Source: Methanomassiliicoccus sp. (GTDB taxonomy: Archaea; Thermoplasmatota; Thermoplasmata; Methanomassiliicoccales; Methanomassiliicoccaceae). From it: 64,000 bases of DNA. Below, one piece after another: positions 51,374-58,710 of this stretch; within the stretch, counting starts at the first letter, position 1; every line of letters starts with the position of its first letter. Where the stretch lies: positions 186,001 to 250,000 of the forward strand of contig JADFDJ010000001.1 of NCBI GenBank assembly GCA_018262895.1. Direction: 5' to 3'. The translations under genes were made by a program, and so were the position numbers. The notes beneath the pieces were generated by a model. That model saw only the letters and a list, made by a program, of their open reading frames with translations, did not search any database and was not told the origin of the DNA.

Positions 51374-52660
51374 TCAACCCAGCAGGGAATTGGCCGCATC
51401 CTCCGCATCCAGCAACACCTTCTCCTCGTCCATGGTGGTCACGACGCCGTCCAGCATGACCGCCCGGCCATCACAGAGGACGGTCTTCACGTTACCGCCG
51501 CATGAGGAGTATATGAGATTCGATACGATCGTGTCCGCCCTGGCGGGACGAAGGTTGGCGGCCTTACCGTTCAATATCACTAGGTCGGCCCTCTTACCGA
51601 CCTCGATGGACCCTATCAGGTGGTCCATCCTCACCGCCCGGGCCGCTTCTATAGTGGCCAGATCGAGCACCTTCTGGGCCGGGAGCACGGTGGGGTCCCA
51701 GCGGTTGGCTTTCTGCAAAAGGGACAGGGTCTTCATCTCACCGAAGAGGTCCAGGCTGTTGTTAGTTGTGGAACCATCGGTCCCGACAGATACGGTCACA
51801 CCGTTCTGGAACATCTCCGGGAGGGGGGCCACTCCGCCCGTCGCCAGCTTCATGTTGGAACAGGGGCAGGTAGATACTTTGGTACCTGCAGCGGCCAAGG
51901 CCCGCACCTCGTTGATGGTGAGCCACGCGGCATGCGCCGCTACACAGTGATCGTTAAGGAACCCTATGGACGACAGATAGTCCCCGGGCCTCTTGCCCTC
52001 CTTACGCTTGCAGTCAGAGACCTCCTTGCGTGTCTCCGACAGATGGAAGGTGAGAAGGAGATCGTTCTCTAATGCGTAATCGCGGGCGCCGAGGAAGGTC
52101 TCGGTGGAGCACACATAAACTCCCTGGAGGCCCACCGCGGGATAGATGCGTTCCCTTCCCTTGAACTGCTGGTGGAAGCGCTTGCAATTCTCCAGGGGAT
52201 CGCCGCTCTGGGTGGTGAACTGCTGGTCCAGGACAGCCCACCCCAGGATCCCCCGTATGCCTGCCTGATCCACCGCCTTTGCGATGATGTCCTCGGAATA
52301 GTAAAGGTCCAGGAACGTGGTGGTGCCAGAGCGTATCATCTCCACGCAGCCTTGGGCAGCCCCGGCTCGGATATCCCTTTCCGTTCTCTTGGCGTCCACC
52401 GCGAACACCTTGTTCAGGAACTGGGGGAATGGGAGGTCATCAGCTATCGACTTCAGGATGGCCATGGAAACGTGGGTGTGGGTGTTTATCAATCCCGGGA
52501 TGACTATGTCTCCAGCAGCGTCTATCTCCACATCCGCCGAGCCACGCACTGTCCCTCCGACCTGCTCAATGGTCCCGTCCCTCACCATCAAGTCCCCACG
52601 TATGATCTGGCGTTCAGCGTTCTGTGTTACGATGTTAGCATCCCGGATAAGAGTTAGCAT
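51374..52660 (-). CDS. dadD: SAH/5'-deoxyadenosine deaminase-family amidohydrolase
   Basis: A 428-residue amidohydrolase. The metal motif NTHTHVSM, HLSE, AAHAAWLT and GTDGSTTNNSLDLF match the SAH, 5'-methylthioadenosine and 5'-deoxyadenosine deaminases (MtaD/DadD). In methanogens the enzyme recycles 5'-deoxyadenosine from radical SAM reactions. The frame extends upstream to 52867, but I chose ATG 52660 with GGTCAGG before it. It is divergent from an MBL-fold gene. The symbol is a family-based guess. Confidence 0.88.
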   Translation of the reverse strand: MLTLIRDANIVTQNAERQIIRGDLMVRDGTIEQVGGTVRGSADVEIDAAGDIVIPGLINTHTHVSMAILKSIADDLPFPQFLNKVFAVDAKRTERDIRAGAAQGCVEMIRSGTTTFLDLYYSEDIIAKAVDQAGIRGILGWAVLDQQFTTQSGDPLENCKRFHQQFKGRERIYPAVGLQGVYVCSTETFLGARDYALENDLLLTFHLSETRKEVSDCKRKEGKRPGDYLSSIGFLNDHCVAAHAAWLTINEVRALAAAGTKVSTCPCSNMKLATGGVAPLPEMFQNGVTVSVGTDGSTTNNSLDLFGEMKTLSLLQKANRWDPTVLPAQKVLDLATIEAARAVRMDHLIGSIEVGKRADLVILNGKAANLRPARADTIVSNLIYSSCGGNVKTVLCDGRAVMLDGVVTTMDEEKVLLDAEDAANSLLG

Positions 52661-52762
52661 CCTGACCGCCGGACCATCAATATGGAACTTATTTAACGTT
52701 GTCCGTCTGGTAAGTTTGTTAAGAGCGTATGGTGTTAGGGTCCCGTAACAGGTGGGGCATAA

Positions 52763-53602
52763 TTGACCAGCATCACATTCTTGGGGACGGGAGGTGGAAG
52801 GTTCGCCACCATTTATCAGATCCGGGCTACGGGGGGCATATATTTGAATGACGGCCCCCGGATACACCTGGACCCGGGCCCCTCCGCCCTAATGGGGATG
52901 CGGAAGCTAGCGCTGGACCCGGCTAAGACCGACGCCGTCCTAATATCGCATTGCCATCCCGATCATTACGCTGATGCTGAGATGCTCATAGAGGGGATGA
53001 CCAAGGGGGGCTTCAAACGCTCTGGGATGCTTGTGGGAAGCATCAGCGCCATTAAGGGCACCGATGGTTTCAGCCAGGCCGTCTCCGACTACCACCAGTC
53101 CATAGTTGCAGGAGTGGAGACGGTGGAGGCCGGGTCCTCATTCGCAGTGAAAGGTATGGCCGTGGATGCCACAAGGACGGCCCACAGTGATCCTACGGGC
53201 GTAGGTTTCAGGTTCCATACATCATCCGGGGTCATCTCGTACGTCGGGGACACCGAGTACGCGGACTACCTCAAGAATGAGCATGTTGGGTGCAGGGTCC
53301 TGGTCCTGAACCTCACCCGGCCCCTGAACTCACGGGTCCCCAAGCACCTCTGCACCGAGGACGCTGCCCTCCTGGCCAAGGAGATCTCGCCGGAGGTGGT
53401 TCTCCTCACGCACTTCGGGATGCGTCTGGTGCATGAGGGAGTGAAGAAGCAGGCAGAGCATGTGGAGAGGGCCTCGGGGGCACGCACCATAGCCGCTGAG
53501 GACCTCATGACCGTACAGATCGGCAAGACCATTCGCTCCACCCGCTCACGGGGATGGGAGATCATCGGCGACGGCAAAGGGCCTGTGCACCTAGATGCCT
53601 AA
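52763..53602 (+). CDS. MBL-fold metallo-hydrolase
   Basis: A 279-residue protein with TFLGTGGGRFATI at the N-terminus and the metal motif SHCHPDHYAD. Later His and Asp (TAHSDPTGVGF, VGDTEYAD, THFGMRL) complete the binuclear site. It resembles RNase Z-type and phosphodiesterase-type members. Start is TTG with GGTGGGG upstream. Substrate unknown. It lies 94 bases upstream of the GTPase gene but a T-rich gap separates them. Confidence 0.87.
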   Translation: MTSITFLGTGGGRFATIYQIRATGGIYLNDGPRIHLDPGPSALMGMRKLALDPAKTDAVLISHCHPDHYADAEMLIEGMTKGGFKRSGMLVGSISAIKGTDGFSQAVSDYHQSIVAGVETVEAGSSFAVKGMAVDATRTAHSDPTGVGFRFHTSSGVISYVGDTEYADYLKNEHVGCRVLVLNLTRPLNSRVPKHLCTEDAALLAKEISPEVVLLTHFGMRLVHEGVKKQAEHVERASGARTIAAEDLMTVQIGKTIRSTRSRGWEIIGDGKGPVHLDA

Positions 53603-53699
53603 TTTTTTTGACTGGATGTCCATTTTTTTCCCTGTGGAAAATACATTTGGTTGACATAGAGGGAAAAGTTAGTAATACTTATAAGGCGTAAATTCAGTG

Positions 53700-54296
53700 A
53701 TGATAGTCTGTCAAATAGTGGGCTTTTTAGGTAGTGGGAAGACCACTTTACTCGTCCAATTAGGTTCAGAACTGGGCAAGGAAGGGAAGAAGGTCGCCAT
53801 TATTGTAAACGAGATAGGTGAGATAGGGGTCGATGGGGCGGTCATCGACTCTTTCGGGTTCCAGAGCGTGGAGCTCACCGAGGGATGCATCTGCTGCACA
53901 TTGGCAGGAAGCCTTCAGAACACCCTCAAGATCATAAGCAAGGAGTATCAGCCCGACCTGATCATCATAGAGCCCACTGGCATCGCCCTTCCTAACATCA
54001 TAAAGAAAATGGTTCGGATAGCGATGGTGGGTGAAGATGCGATGTACACCATAGGTATCGTGGACGCTTTCAGGGCGGAGAAGCTGTTCAAGGAAGCAGA
54101 GACGTTCTGCAGGACCCAGATCGACGGGGCAGACATCGTGGCCATCAACAAGATCGACCTTATAGACAATGGGGTCCGTGATAAGGTCAGTGATCTGGTC
54201 AGGAACATCACTCCCAAATCAAAGATCGTTTTCATTTCTGCAAAACAGGCCCAGGGGCTGGAGAGCTTGTTGGAATTGCTGAGGGAAGCATCATGA
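53700..54296 (+). CDS. G3E-family GTPase (CobW/HypB/UreG-like)
   Basis: A 198-residue GTPase of COG0523. Walker A is VGFLGSGKTTL at the N-terminus, the G3E Glu is in VNEIGEIG, and the metal-binding CxCC motif reads GCICC in EGCICCTLAG. NKID is the guanine motif. It lacks the C-terminal CobW domain, so it is a short form. Members load Ni, Zn or corrinoid-linked metals into enzymes. It is coupled by an ATGA overlap to the His-rich protein gene and followed by ramA. A TATA-like box 20 bases upstream implies a leaderless message; GTG 53697 is an alternative start. Confidence 0.87.
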   Translation: MIVCQIVGFLGSGKTTLLVQLGSELGKEGKKVAIIVNEIGEIGVDGAVIDSFGFQSVELTEGCICCTLAGSLQNTLKIISKEYQPDLIIIEPTGIALPNIIKKMVRIAMVGEDAMYTIGIVDAFRAEKLFKEAETFCRTQIDGADIVAINKIDLIDNGVRDKVSDLVRNITPKSKIVFISAKQAQGLESLLELLREAS

Positions 54297-54748
54297 GCGA
54301 AGATACCAAGAAGATGGCGAACACCGGGGCTCATGGGATGAAGCTGACCTTCCACGCTCATCCGTCCATCCCTTCCGATGAGTTCGTCTCCCTCATTGAA
54401 GGCTTGCTGAACTCCGTCGGAGATAAGGTCAATGAGATGGGGAAGGTCCTGATAGGACATGCCAAGACATTCATCACCACGCCCCATGGGACCCTTAAGG
54501 TAAACCTCATAGACACCGACCTGGGGGCGGAGACCCTTAACAGACTGTCCTCGCCTGAGGTGGAAGAGGGAGAGATGAAGTTCATGTGCGTGCTCATGGG
54601 CCTATCGGATCATGAGGTCGAGGAGATCATGGAAGGTAGCCTTGAGAACCTGAAGGGCCGCATGGAGTTAATGATCGAGGAGCACGAGCATGAGCACCAG
54701 CATGAGAATCACGAGCATCAGCATGATGAGCACGAGCATCAGCAATGA
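54293..54748 (+). CDS. His-rich C-terminus protein linked to the GTPase and RamA
   Basis: A 151-residue protein. Residues 15-130 look like a compact alpha/beta domain (MKLTFHAHPSIPSDEFVSL; KTFITTPHGTLKVNLIDTD). The last 25 residues contain nine His in alternating H-E/H-Q order, a probable metal-binding tail like those of HypB or nickel chaperones. The gene starts within the stop of the GTPase gene and ends nine bases before ramA. A metal-handling partner of the GTPase is likely. I do not know a named family. Confidence 0.75.
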   Translation: MSEDTKKMANTGAHGMKLTFHAHPSIPSDEFVSLIEGLLNSVGDKVNEMGKVLIGHAKTFITTPHGTLKVNLIDTDLGAETLNRLSSPEVEEGEMKFMCVLMGLSDHEVEEIMEGSLENLKGRMELMIEEHEHEHQHENHEHQHDEHEHQQ

Positions 54749-54757
54749 GGTGATCAA

Positions 54758-56392
54758 ATGGAGAAATACGGACTAGCCATAGATGTGGGAACGAGCGGTA
54801 CGAGAATGCACGCGGTGGACCTGGAGTCCAATAAGATCATCTCCACTGCAATAACTATGCGCCATCCTGTTCCAGGCGCGAACGTCATGGATCACCTAAC
54901 ATTCTGCATAGAGGTGGACAGGGGACTGGCCCATAGATTGCTGATCGACACCTCCAACCGGCTCATGAAGCTTCTGGACATCGACCTGAAAAAGGTGGAG
55001 AGGGTAGCAATTTGCGGCAACCCCATCCAGCTCTCGATCTACCAGGACATGGAGGTTCGCGACCTGGCCTTCGCCATGCCTAATGCGTTGAGGAGCCGTG
55101 GGGTCGAACTGCAGAAGAGGGATGCAGCGGTCCTCAACGCAGCGGATATTGGGCTTGAGCTGCCTGATAAGGTCGAACTGTACATACCTCCTGCCATCCG
55201 GCATGAGATCGGTGCGGACGCCCTGGCCATGATGTACAAGACCAACCTGTTGGACCGGAAGGAGAACGTCCTTGTCACCGACTACGGGACCAACGCCGAG
55301 ATGGCCCTCAAGGTCGGTGATGAGATATACACCGGCTCGGCCGCTGCTGGCCCGGCCATCGAGGGGCAGTCCATAAAGGCAGGGATGCTCGCAGCTCCGG
55401 GAGCCATCAGCGATGTGGATGCGTTCATGGACTGGAAGTGCACCGTTCTCGACGATGCTATCCTGGCGCAGGAAGGAGATACGGTCAATCCCAACACCGG
55501 AACGGTCGTCACAGAGAGCACCATGCACGGGAAGGCGATCGGCATCACTGGTACCGGCGTCATCGCGGCCATCGCGGAGGGTCTTAGCAACGGCCTGATA
55601 AAGATGCCTCACATCAACACCATCGATGGAAAGCTCCATCTTCAGGACGGGGTCATCCTGACCGAGCATGATATTGTCGAGGCTTCAAAGACCTTCGGCG
55701 CCATGAGGGCCGGTCACTTCACTCTTCTGGAGCACGCAGGGCTAAAGTTCGAGGAGCTGGACATCATGTACATGAGCGGAGCGTCTGGTACGTACGTGGA
55801 CGCTCATAAGGCGCAGCGGGTCGGACTGCTGCCGCCGTCCTGCGGCCAGATCTTCCAGTACGGGAACACCTCTTTGGCCCTGGCCCTGGACCTCGTCCGG
55901 AACCCTGGATTGCTGGATAACCTTCAAACTTTGGCCAACTCCATTCGTGCCAACCACGTCATGTTCGCCACCGACAAGGTGTTCGAGACCGTGTTCATCC
56001 AGGAGCTGGCATATTGGACCGAGGGAATGCCCATGGAGATGTACAACATGATGCTTGGCCTCCAGGACATCCAGCCCCTGCCGGACAAGGTCAAGGATGC
56101 CCAGGTCACCCGCACCGTGCTCAGGGACATACCTGATCTCGGCTACAAGGGGCTCAGGGTCCTCAGGGACATAGGCATCTTCATGGAGGGGTCTTTCGAA
56201 GGGTGCATAGGATGCGGCAAGTGCGTCGATGACTGCCCCGAGAATGCGATCACCATGACCCCCATGGACGATAGGTACGAGATGAGGATCGCCTCCGACC
56301 TGTGCAACGGGACCGCCTGCTTGCGTTGCGAGAGGATCTGCCCGGAGAAGGTCTTCAAGGTCAAGGAGCTGCAGAAGAACATTCTAAAGTAA
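54758..56392 (+). CDS. ramA: RamA-like corrinoid methyltransferase activation protein
   Basis: A 544-residue protein. An ASKHA-type ATPase-like domain (LAIDVGTSGTRMHAVDLESN at the start; MSGASGTYVDAH near 350) is followed by two C-terminal 4Fe-4S clusters: CIGCGKCVDDCP and CNGTACLRCERICP. RamA reduces inactive Co(II) corrinoid proteins to Co(I) with ATP in methylotrophic methanogens. The gene directly follows the His-rich gene and is convergent with mtaB. It probably serves MtaC here. Confidence 0.93.
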   Translation: MEKYGLAIDVGTSGTRMHAVDLESNKIISTAITMRHPVPGANVMDHLTFCIEVDRGLAHRLLIDTSNRLMKLLDIDLKKVERVAICGNPIQLSIYQDMEVRDLAFAMPNALRSRGVELQKRDAAVLNAADIGLELPDKVELYIPPAIRHEIGADALAMMYKTNLLDRKENVLVTDYGTNAEMALKVGDEIYTGSAAAGPAIEGQSIKAGMLAAPGAISDVDAFMDWKCTVLDDAILAQEGDTVNPNTGTVVTESTMHGKAIGITGTGVIAAIAEGLSNGLIKMPHINTIDGKLHLQDGVILTEHDIVEASKTFGAMRAGHFTLLEHAGLKFEELDIMYMSGASGTYVDAHKAQRVGLLPPSCGQIFQYGNTSLALALDLVRNPGLLDNLQTLANSIRANHVMFATDKVFETVFIQELAYWTEGMPMEMYNMMLGLQDIQPLPDKVKDAQVTRTVLRDIPDLGYKGLRVLRDIGIFMEGSFEGCIGCGKCVDDCPENAITMTPMDDRYEMRIASDLCNGTACLRCERICPEKVFKVKELQKNILK

Positions 56393-56397
56393 AAAGA

Positions 56398-56427
56398 GGA
56401 GAGGGGCAAACCCTCTCCCGTTTTTTT
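56398..56427 (+). terminator. hairpin plus T-run terminator after ramA
   Basis: An 8-bp stem GGAGAGGG/CCCTCTCC with loop GCAAA is followed by a T-run at 56421-56427. It lies just after the ramA stop and should terminate the plus-strand operon. Confidence 0.7.
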
Positions 56428-56509
56428 CTATCTTATCGTTCCTGCTCTAAAGGTATGGAACTATGGTCCGGACCAAACCATGATCGGGGTCCGTTCATCC
56501 TCGAACTGC

Positions 56510-57913
56510 TCATAACTCATAGTTCTTCGGGTTGAAGAGGGGGACGTCCTTGTAGGCCTTGAGACACATCTCCTGGAAGCGGCCTTCCTCGTCAGGCAGT
56601 GCCGACAGGTCGGTGATTATCTTACGCAGCATGTCCTGCTCATGCTTGGACAATCTCAGCTTTCCTGACTTGTTCTCCTCCTCTATAAGCCTGGCCGCGG
56701 TCATGCCGGCGGCCTTGGAGCGGAGGTAGATATCGTTGCCGTACTCCACTATCGCCTGACCGACCTTGTAGGCGTTGTCGTAGGCCAGGATGAAAGCCTC
56801 CGGGCTCCGGTAGCGGTCCGTGGCCATGTACAGGTCACGGAGGAGCCGGTCCTGCTTCAGCTGCTTGGCCATGTTCATGAGCGCGGCCTCGTACCCTATA
56901 GAGCCCAGCCAGCACTGGACGGACGATCCGCCGAACTCAGGGTGGTACTCCACGGACTCATTGGACCACAGATCGCACACCTGGGCAATGAGGTTTCCCA
57001 TGAGGTCCGCGTGGGCGCACTGGCAGTTCTTACCTTCCTGGGCCGTAGGCTTGCCGGCGATGGCCTTGACGATGGGGCCCTCGTAGCCGCAGTCCTTATC
57101 GGGGCCTGTGGCCCCGCACTCCCATGCCACCAGGGTCTTGGCGGAGGCGATCGCCCGGGTGACCGCAGCGAAGGTGCGGGGTATGTCACGGTCAAGGTAG
57201 CCCCCGGCCATGAACATGGAGGTGTTCGCGCCCGCGCAGTTGGTATCCCCGCCGGCGCGGACCTTGTTCTTCTTGGCGATGTCGACGATCTGGGGCCAGA
57301 TCCACGCCATGTCGATGGAGCCGAGGTAGCCGATGCCGAACAGCCATCCGCGGATGTCCTGGCGCAGGATGGCGTAGTCAGCGACCTCCTTTCCCCCCGT
57401 GGACTCGATGGACAGCAGATCCGCCCCGTTCTCGGCCGCGACCTCGATCGACTCCACGCACTTCTCCGGATAGCTGTGCTTCTTGTCCATGCCGACGCGC
57501 AGGCCCTCCTCCGCAAGACGGGGATCGGCGACAGTATGGCGTATGGACAGGGCGATGCCGTACTCATCATGGTAGTTCTGCATCATCTCCTTCTGGCCTG
57601 CGACCACCGGCTTCTCGTACCTTTGAGGTTCGTTGACCATCTGAAAGATATGCTCGTTCTCCAGCTGCACCGTAGGGAAGCCCAGGGTGATCGCTCTGTC
57701 CAGGATATCCTTGGTGATGTAGTCGACGTACTCCCTCCTAAGGGACTCAGGATTCTTCTCCGCTCCCGGCCTGGGGGCAAAGTTGATCTCCGGGACCACG
57801 ACCCCCGCCCCCACCGTCTGCCCTAGACCATAGGAGACAGGATACCTGGCCTCGCCGAAGACCATCTCATCAGGGGAACCGTACTCCATCCTCGTGTATC
57901 TCTTGATAGCCAT
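56510..57913 (-). CDS. mtaB: methanol:corrinoid methyltransferase MtaB
   Basis: A 467-residue zinc enzyme that moves the methyl group of methanol to MtaC. AENGADLLSIESTGGKE, GDTNCAGANT and AWECGATGPDKDCGYE hold the likely zinc-ligand Glu and Cys residues. The open frame extends upstream through mtaC, but ATG 57913 with GGAGG 7 bases before it is the true start. The mtaC stop lies eleven bases upstream, in the same operon. Its product would be active with MtaC and MtaA; mtaA is not in this window. Confidence 0.95.
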   Translation of the reverse strand: MAIKRYTRMEYGSPDEMVFGEARYPVSYGLGQTVGAGVVVPEINFAPRPGAEKNPESLRREYVDYITKDILDRAITLGFPTVQLENEHIFQMVNEPQRYEKPVVAGQKEMMQNYHDEYGIALSIRHTVADPRLAEEGLRVGMDKKHSYPEKCVESIEVAAENGADLLSIESTGGKEVADYAILRQDIRGWLFGIGYLGSIDMAWIWPQIVDIAKKNKVRAGGDTNCAGANTSMFMAGGYLDRDIPRTFAAVTRAIASAKTLVAWECGATGPDKDCGYEGPIVKAIAGKPTAQEGKNCQCAHADLMGNLIAQVCDLWSNESVEYHPEFGGSSVQCWLGSIGYEAALMNMAKQLKQDRLLRDLYMATDRYRSPEAFILAYDNAYKVGQAIVEYGNDIYLRSKAAGMTAARLIEEENKSGKLRLSKHEQDMLRKIITDLSALPDEEGRFQEMCLKAYKDVPLFNPKNYEL

Positions 57914-57924
57914 TGTGATACCTC

Positions 57925-58710
57925 CTACTCCTTGGCCGCCGTCAGCTTGTCCCAGTTCTCCCGGAGACGCCTCCAGTCGTAGCCCTCCATGGTCTTGTTC
58001 GCAAGCGCGGGGCCCTGTATGGCCTTGGCCGCGAAAACACCTATAGGATAGGACTCCACGAACGCACGGTTCACCGCCCCTCCAGCGCAGATGAACGGGA
58101 TATTGATACCTCTCTCCCGTAGCCTCTCGGAGATCTTGGGGAACGCGGACATCGTGGTGGTCATGAGCGCGGTCCCGGTCAATATCGCCGGCTTTTCGTT
58201 CTCCACCGTGGTGATGACATCCTGTATGGACACGTCCCTCCCCATGTCCACGACCGTGTAGCCGTTGGATTTCAGGAGAACGGCGGCAATGTTCTTTCCG
58301 ATGTCGTGGGGGTCTCCCTCGGCCACATGCATCACCACCTTGCCTCGGGTCTCGCGTGCTCCCTTCATCTGGGACTCGCACAGCTTCACCCCCTTGTCCA
58401 TTACCTCAGCGGCCACCATCACATGCGGAAGGTAATAGATGCCCCGTCCGTAGAGCTCGCCCACTACGTCCATGCCCTTGATGAGGCCGTGCTCGATCAC
58501 CTCCTCTGGGGTGTAGTTCTTCAGGGCCGAAGCCACGTTCTCCGTGATATTCTTGGAACGCATGAACACGACATCCTCGACCACCTTCCGAAGGTAGGGG
58601 TCCTTGGGCACCATCCTCGCCGCCAGCTCCTCAGGTGACTCCTTGGATTCCATCTGGATATCGTATCTTCTCAGAACACGGTCAAAGTTCACACTCTTGA
58701 GATCTAACAT
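57925..58710 (-). CDS. mtaC: methanol corrinoid protein MtaC
   Basis: A 261-residue cobalamin carrier. A helical cap domain precedes the B12-binding domain with EGDPHDIGKNI, in which the His near residue 135 is the lower cobalt ligand, and GTALMTTTMSAF and GGAVNRAF complete the corrinoid pocket. The start is preceded by GGAGG. It is the first gene of the mtaCB operon. The 5' leader contains a hairpin. Confidence 0.96.
   Translation of the reverse strand: MLDLKSVNFDRVLRRYDIQMESKESPEELAARMVPKDPYLRKVVEDVVFMRSKNITENVASALKNYTPEEVIEHGLIKGMDVVGELYGRGIYYLPHVMVAAEVMDKGVKLCESQMKGARETRGKVVMHVAEGDPHDIGKNIAAVLLKSNGYTVVDMGRDVSIQDVITTVENEKPAILTGTALMTTTMSAFPKISERLRERGINIPFICAGGAVNRAFVESYPIGVFAAKAIQGPALANKTMEGYDWRRLRENWDKLTAAKE

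Follow-up and report, generated by a model that had tools for sequence, protein, structure and literature searches.

A short COG0523 GTPase and a detached C-terminal domain encoded beside ramA and mtaCB in Methanomassiliicoccales

Within a 64,000-nucleotide stretch of a Methanomassiliicoccus sp. genome (GCA_018262895.1, contig JADFDJ010000001.1, positions 186,001 to 250,000; hereafter, the window), a plus-strand operon encodes a short G3E/COG0523 GTPase of 198 amino acids (aa), a protein with a histidine-rich tail (HisP), and the corrinoid activase gene ramA. The methanol methyltransferase genes mtaCB converge on it from the minus strand and therefore lie outside the operon. Judged by homology, HisP is the C-terminal domain of a COG0523 chaperone, split off as a separate gene. 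On balance, we favor the reading that the GTPase and HisP are two halves of one GTP-driven G3E/COG0523 metallochaperone, divided between translationally coupled genes, with the methanol:coenzyme M methyltransferase system as its most likely client and Zn(II) as its most likely metal. An earlier note on this DNA, made from the sequence alone, had described the short GTPase with its GCICC motif, its coupling to a protein with a nine-His tail, and the succession to a ramA gene facing mtaCB; open reading frames, motifs, and profile matches bore out each of these details.

HisP matched no Pfam or NCBIfam family. A scan of genome contigs with MtaB yielded seventy-nine named loci, all of them archaeal. 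At the Methanosarcinales loci, the COG0523 neighbor of ramA and mtaCB is one continuous protein of 340–410 aa, in which the GTPase domain is followed by a GHIK-motif domain and then, usually, by a His-rich tail. Because hhalign shows homology between HisP and the C-terminal domain of this fusion (E = 7.3e-12), the gene pair of the window is a split form of the Methanosarcinales protein, and the natural fusion is independent evidence that the GTPase and HisP would act together. The fusion is carried by 32 of the 197 Halobacteriota genomes in the sample, and GC-CC is invariant across the fusions. The GTPase tree resolves neither its deep forks nor the ancestral state, fused or split.

The earlier note had labeled HisP a His-rich metal protein; by its homology to the fusion, it is not an independent one. 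Across all HisP sequences, only the G, H, and K of a GHxK motif are invariant, and the His tail is lost or shortened in several orthologs; the conserved core of HisP is GHxK and not the tail. A role as a stand-alone metal storage protein was rejected on the same two grounds. HisP proteins of the Methanomethylophilaceae type are longer, at ~250–270 aa (L031:10140-10916, L172:8344, and L173:10501), and the one at L031 (258 aa) has an extreme His/Cys-rich tail. Longer COG0523 proteins (~356 aa; L150–L156) carry GCFCC and a C-terminal domain with AHVK, which resembles HisP weakly in a profile comparison (hhalign, E = 5.6e-5) and may be related to the GHxK domain as well. A plasmid search with the fused C-terminal domain returned no match.

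The AlphaFold2 model of HisP (mean predicted local distance difference test score of 83.9, with most of the core above 90) has a beta-alpha-four beta-alpha-beta topology. When the model was compared with the Protein Data Bank (PDB), the top three matches were all to Escherichia coli YjiA (probability 0.97–0.99, with a weak E-value of ~5e-3 and a template modeling score of ~0.35). The aligned region of YjiA is not printed in the output; since HisP has no GTPase domain, the match presumably falls on the C-terminal domain of YjiA. For the model of the fusion, YjiA was the best PDB match overall (E = 6e-12), and a sequence search of PDB with HisP returned nothing credible.

To evaluate the gene linkage, we collected the GTPase, HisP, RamA, MtaB, and URO-D-type methyltransferase genes of sixty-one Methanomassiliicoccales genomes and computed the distances between them, ranking GTPases by similarity to that of the window; forty-nine were classified as window-type. 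RamA lies within 1 kb of 40 of these 49, against ~0.27 expected under random placement (the genomes are related and the events not independent, and hence no P-value is attached). MtaB is found within 7 kb of thirty-eight, and at least one of the two genes is near forty-three. As an internal control, none of nine longer COG0523 proteins of the same genomes is near genes of the RamA/MtaB set. The arrangement of GTPase, HisP, ramA, and mtaCB is thus real, conserved across Methanomassiliicoccales, and well beyond chance, which upholds the tie to ramA and mtaBC drawn in the earlier note; where that note had suggested looking for the gene trio near mtaBC in Methanosarcina as well, the Methanosarcinales counterpart is the single fused protein.

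The distribution of the GTPase follows the methanol methyltransferase rather than RamA, since a window-type GTPase is present in all 39 MtaB-bearing genomes and absent from 17 of the 22 MtaB-less ones, whereas RamA occurs in 61 of 61 genomes and the window-type GTPase in 44. Among the five MtaB-less genomes that do have it, four carry it on short or truncated contigs, one with an MtaC fragment at the contig end, and one (G051) is clean. The hypothesis that the GTPase is a universal partner of RamA was rejected, because RamA is present in every genome and ramA loci without the GTPase exist; in the source genome, both ramA copies of the methylamine region (contig C26) have no GTPase nearby. A further proposal is that the client of the pair is RamA, which it would help to mature by supplying a metal or an Fe-S cluster. 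The shared operon in the window and the adjacency to ramA in Methanosarcinales would fit such a role, but other ramA paralogs lack a neighboring GTPase and G3E GTPases are not known to assemble [4Fe-4S] clusters, so that we regard this proposal as very improbable.

The coordinates of the locus are given in Table 1. The length of the GTPase is counted from an ATG; an alternative start is the GTG at 53697, and relatives begin with MIICQ. The start of HisP overlaps the GTPase stop (ATGA), ramA begins 9 bp past HisP, and the convergent ramA and mtaB genes are separated by 117 bp. In MtaB, E164, C220, and C269, the Zn ligands of the Methanosarcina barkeri enzyme, are invariant. Directly upstream of the GTPase lie an amidohydrolase gene (51374-52867, minus strand) and a metallo-beta-lactamase-fold hydrolase gene (52763-53602, plus strand); their predicted 5' ends overlap, and the true start of at least one of them is therefore probably shorter than predicted. 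The source genome has a second mtaB (G000:C24:117311-118699), with no GTPase close by.

Table 1. Genes and motifs of the GTPase/HisP/ramA/mtaCB locus in the window.
Feature	Position	Strand	Details
Short G3E/COG0523 GTPase, GTPase domain only, without C-terminal domain	53700..54296	+	198 aa; PF02492 E = 4.9e-40
GCICC motif (GCxCC is the metal-site motif of COG0523)	53883..53897	+	GTPase residues 62-66
HisP, detached C-terminal domain of a COG0523 chaperone, with His-rich tail	54293..54748	+	151 aa; homology to fusion C-terminal domain
GHxK motif of HisP (here GHAK)	54455..54466	+	G, H, and K invariant
His-rich tail of HisP, EEHEHEHQHENHEHQHDEHEHQQ	54677..54745	+	9 His in 23 residues (C-terminal)
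ramA, corrinoid protein reductive activase, C-terminal [4Fe-4S] domains	54758..56392	+	TIGR04270 732.6 bits (cut-off 500); PF14574, PF17651, Fer4
mtaB, methanol:corrinoid methyltransferase	56510..57913	-	PF12176; NF040651 746.6 bits (cut-off 720); 2i2x_A match
mtaC, methanol corrinoid protein	57925..58710	-	PF02607, PF02310; NF040669 289 bits, below the equivalog cut-off of 450

The GTPase belongs to the CobW/HypB/UreG nucleotide-binding family (PF02492; 137.5 bits, cut-off 20.7), and its motifs are intact: GFLGSGKT (Walker A), GCICC, EPTG (with the Walker B Glu), NKID (NKxD), and SAK. Most COG0523 proteins, although not all, carry a CobW_C domain (PF07683) in the same chain; PF07683 is absent from the GTPase, which ends at residue 198, and HisP gives no match to it either. 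Of the NCBIfam models, the best and a full-length match is NF041053 (CobW-related selenoprotein), a family listed as a UxxC selenoprotein (PMC13188914), but the window protein scores below its cut-off (119.7 bits, cut-off 180) and has Cys in place of selenocysteine. The possibility that the GTPase is a selenoprotein was rejected, as its frame is open, with GCICC and no in-frame UGA; some tblastn matches contain TGA codons, and several of these matches appear to overrun a stop. As a short G3E GTPase, the protein is also reminiscent of HypB and UreG, and a separate His-rich partner recalls UreG with UreE, its separate metal donor. However, the GTPase falls below the equivalog cut-offs of both (hypB, 52.5 bits vs 121.2; ureG, 19.3 vs 204.2), and no hydrogenase or urease genes are present among the neighbor genes identified here. 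YjiA, a Zn-bound COG0523 protein (1nij and 4ixm), likewise has a GCxCC-bearing GTPase domain (phmmer, E = 4e-17), but its sequence similarity to the window proteins is limited to that domain.

The earlier note had considered the module undescribed, yet the association has been in print for some time. Most archaeal COG0523 proteins were assigned to subfamily 13 and found to be colocalized with corrinoid methyltransferases; in Methanosarcina species, subfamily 13 clusters with mtaA, mtaB, mtaC, and ramM and was proposed to be a metal chaperone (Haas et al. 2009; PMC2770081). In the same study, of the subfamily 13 proteins MA4382 and MM1072, the former is reported as detected in methanol-grown cells and the latter as co-induced with the ramM homolog MM1071, the Zn dependence of MtaA and MtaB is cited, and the cases include Clostridium and Desulfitobacterium (PMC2770081); the present survey covered archaea. 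Both subfamily 13 and the window protein are GCxCC G3E GTPases clustered with these methyltransferase and activase genes, but in Methanosarcinales there is one protein of 340–410 aa, whereas the window has a separate GTPase (198 aa) and HisP (151 aa). In our tree, from which the MA4382 and MM1072 sequences themselves are absent, Methanosarcina fusions form a separate clade. Homology and gene context together suggest that the GTPase/HisP pair is an archaeal member of subfamily 13. We found no mention of HisP or of a split form in Haas et al. (2009; PMC2770081), and no functional study of this GTPase in the open-access literature, a coverage that most subscription papers fall outside. The link between the GTPase and the methanol enzymes has therefore been known since 2009; what appears to be new is the division into two pieces and the identification of HisP.

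The pairing of GTPase and HisP recurs in two further lines, B and C, besides the window line (A), and HisP proteins of lines A and C are homologous (hhalign, E = 1e-13). Line C GTPases (~225 aa) adjoin corrinoid proteins and zinc-type URO-D/MtaA-type enzymes and are sometimes divergent from another RamA: C2-type GTPases lie ~175 bp from a divergent RamA, and C1 GTPases lie beside corrinoid proteins. Among the remaining short GTPases, 35 of 91 have RamA at a distance of no more than 1 kb or a URO-D gene no more than 4 kb away. A cluster of divergent ramA, GTPase, HisP, URO-D protein, and MtaA was observed at L164:7702-12926, with similar ones at L160–L163 and L166, and the same ramA/URO-D/MtaA cluster without the pair at L192 and L198. 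Because the cluster also exists without GTPase/HisP, the comparison suggests that the pair was inserted into it or lost from it. The expectation of a GTPase in every zinc-type MtaA and ramA cluster is false. In other genome groups, the gene order is mtaB, mtaA-like URO-D, mtaC, fusion, and ramA at L140 and L148 (reversed at L141), which independently supports the link to the methanol methyltransferase. At L137, the fusion gene comes after a fused corrinoid/URO-D methyltransferase. A second fusion type of Methanosarcinales (L130:6380-9117 and L134:6101-9579) follows histidine kinases with a MEDS (methanogen/methylotroph DcmR sensory) domain and has no ramA nearby.

The earlier note had held that its proposal would fail if the pair occurred mostly away from corrinoid genes or next to nickel/zinc transport genes. 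This applies in part: line B lies away from corrinoid genes, and two unlinked pairs of family f2 (Methanomethylophilaceae-type) lie beside NMT1-type ABC (ATP-binding cassette) transporter genes. Three genomes of the Methanomethylophilaceae type have an unlinked GTPase/HisP pair, the two with the transporter neighbors being L031 and L173; window-type GTPases of f2 form their own clade in the tree, with an unresolved deep placement. The second GTPase/HisP pair of the source genome is of line B (G000:C5:45838-46865; L013:9839-10875, minus strand) and has the surroundings typical of that line, namely OsmC-like, nicotinate phosphoribosyltransferase, and enolase genes. Such neighborhoods, like those with transporters, would suit a metal-sparing chaperone with a general part in the homeostasis of zinc or nickel, kept near methyltransferase genes by happenstance, and zinc homeostasis is the role of other COG0523 subfamilies (PMC2770081). 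With 43 of 49 window-type GTPases near RamA or MtaB and a co-occurrence with MtaB of 39 of 39, we consider this alternative improbable for the window line.

We infer the mechanism of the favored two-part metallochaperone as follows. The GTPase would use its GCICC motif, which lies near switch I, to bind a divalent metal, and HisP would associate with the GTPase and supply the missing C-terminal domain for client docking and metal relay, with its His tail serving as a metal reservoir or buffer. GTP hydrolysis would then release the metal into the client, Zn(II) being delivered to MtaB and, in the sister lines, to MtaA-type URO-D enzymes. Three observations favor zinc delivery to these enzymes: the GTPase co-occurs with MtaB rather than tracking RamA, line C adjoins URO-D enzymes, and the methylamine-region ramA copies of the source genome have no GTPase.

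Several observations weigh against this interpretation. Line B pairs, in the surroundings named above, have no corrinoid neighbors; clusters of MtaA, ramA, and corrinoid genes exist without the GTPase; and the physical link of the GTPase is tighter to ramA than to mtaB. Second MtaB copies without a local GTPase (e.g. on contig C24 of the source genome) imply that one GTPase would need to act in trans. Some window-like GTPases of f2 have no detectable HisP. Finally, when HisP was compared by hhalign with CobW_C, represented by a small archaeal alignment, the two proved unrelated by this measure, so that membership of HisP in CobW_C is unsupported at the sequence level even though the fold search points to YjiA; any kinship with CobW_C would have to be very remote.

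The GTPase-less MtaA and ramA clusters and the closer link to ramA make a corrinoid role a serious rival. Here, the pair would be a chaperone or repair partner of RamA that gates cobamide loading or reactivation on MtaC in the manner of MeaB, with no delivery of free metal. RamA is the nearest and most constant neighbor (40 of 49 within 1 kb), C2 GTPases lie close to a divergent RamA and C1 GTPases beside corrinoid proteins, and ramA and the fusion are adjacent in Methanosarcinales. The likeness to MeaB/MMAA, as a G3E GTPase serving a B12 enzyme, is one of analogy only, since the window GTPase matches the MeaB models below their cut-offs (PF03308, 18.8 bits vs 23.1; TIGR00750, 19.5 vs 240.75). 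Moreover, GCICC is the metal motif of COG0523, RamA is present in seventeen genomes without a window-type GTPase, and the methylamine-region ramA copies of the source genome have no GTPase near them. We therefore judge the corrinoid role unlikely, if less so than the other alternatives.

Beyond the favored zinc metallochaperone of the window, a broader reading can be offered more tentatively. Methylotrophic methanogens may possess GTP-driven machinery specialized in loading metal into methanol methyltransferase, in two architectures (fused, or GTPase plus GHxK domain); it may have radiated into paralogs that each serve a different corrinoid-dependent zinc-type methyltransferase, and methanogenesis from methanol may require it. 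Such a chaperone would bear on a step of methylotrophic methanogenesis, the acquisition of zinc by MtaB and MtaA, and on the question of maturation factors specific to corrinoid methyltransferases. The GHxK domain defined here has no Pfam family that we could find. With HisP as the detached C-terminal domain, the chaperone would become a two-component system, each piece of which could be purified and titrated separately.

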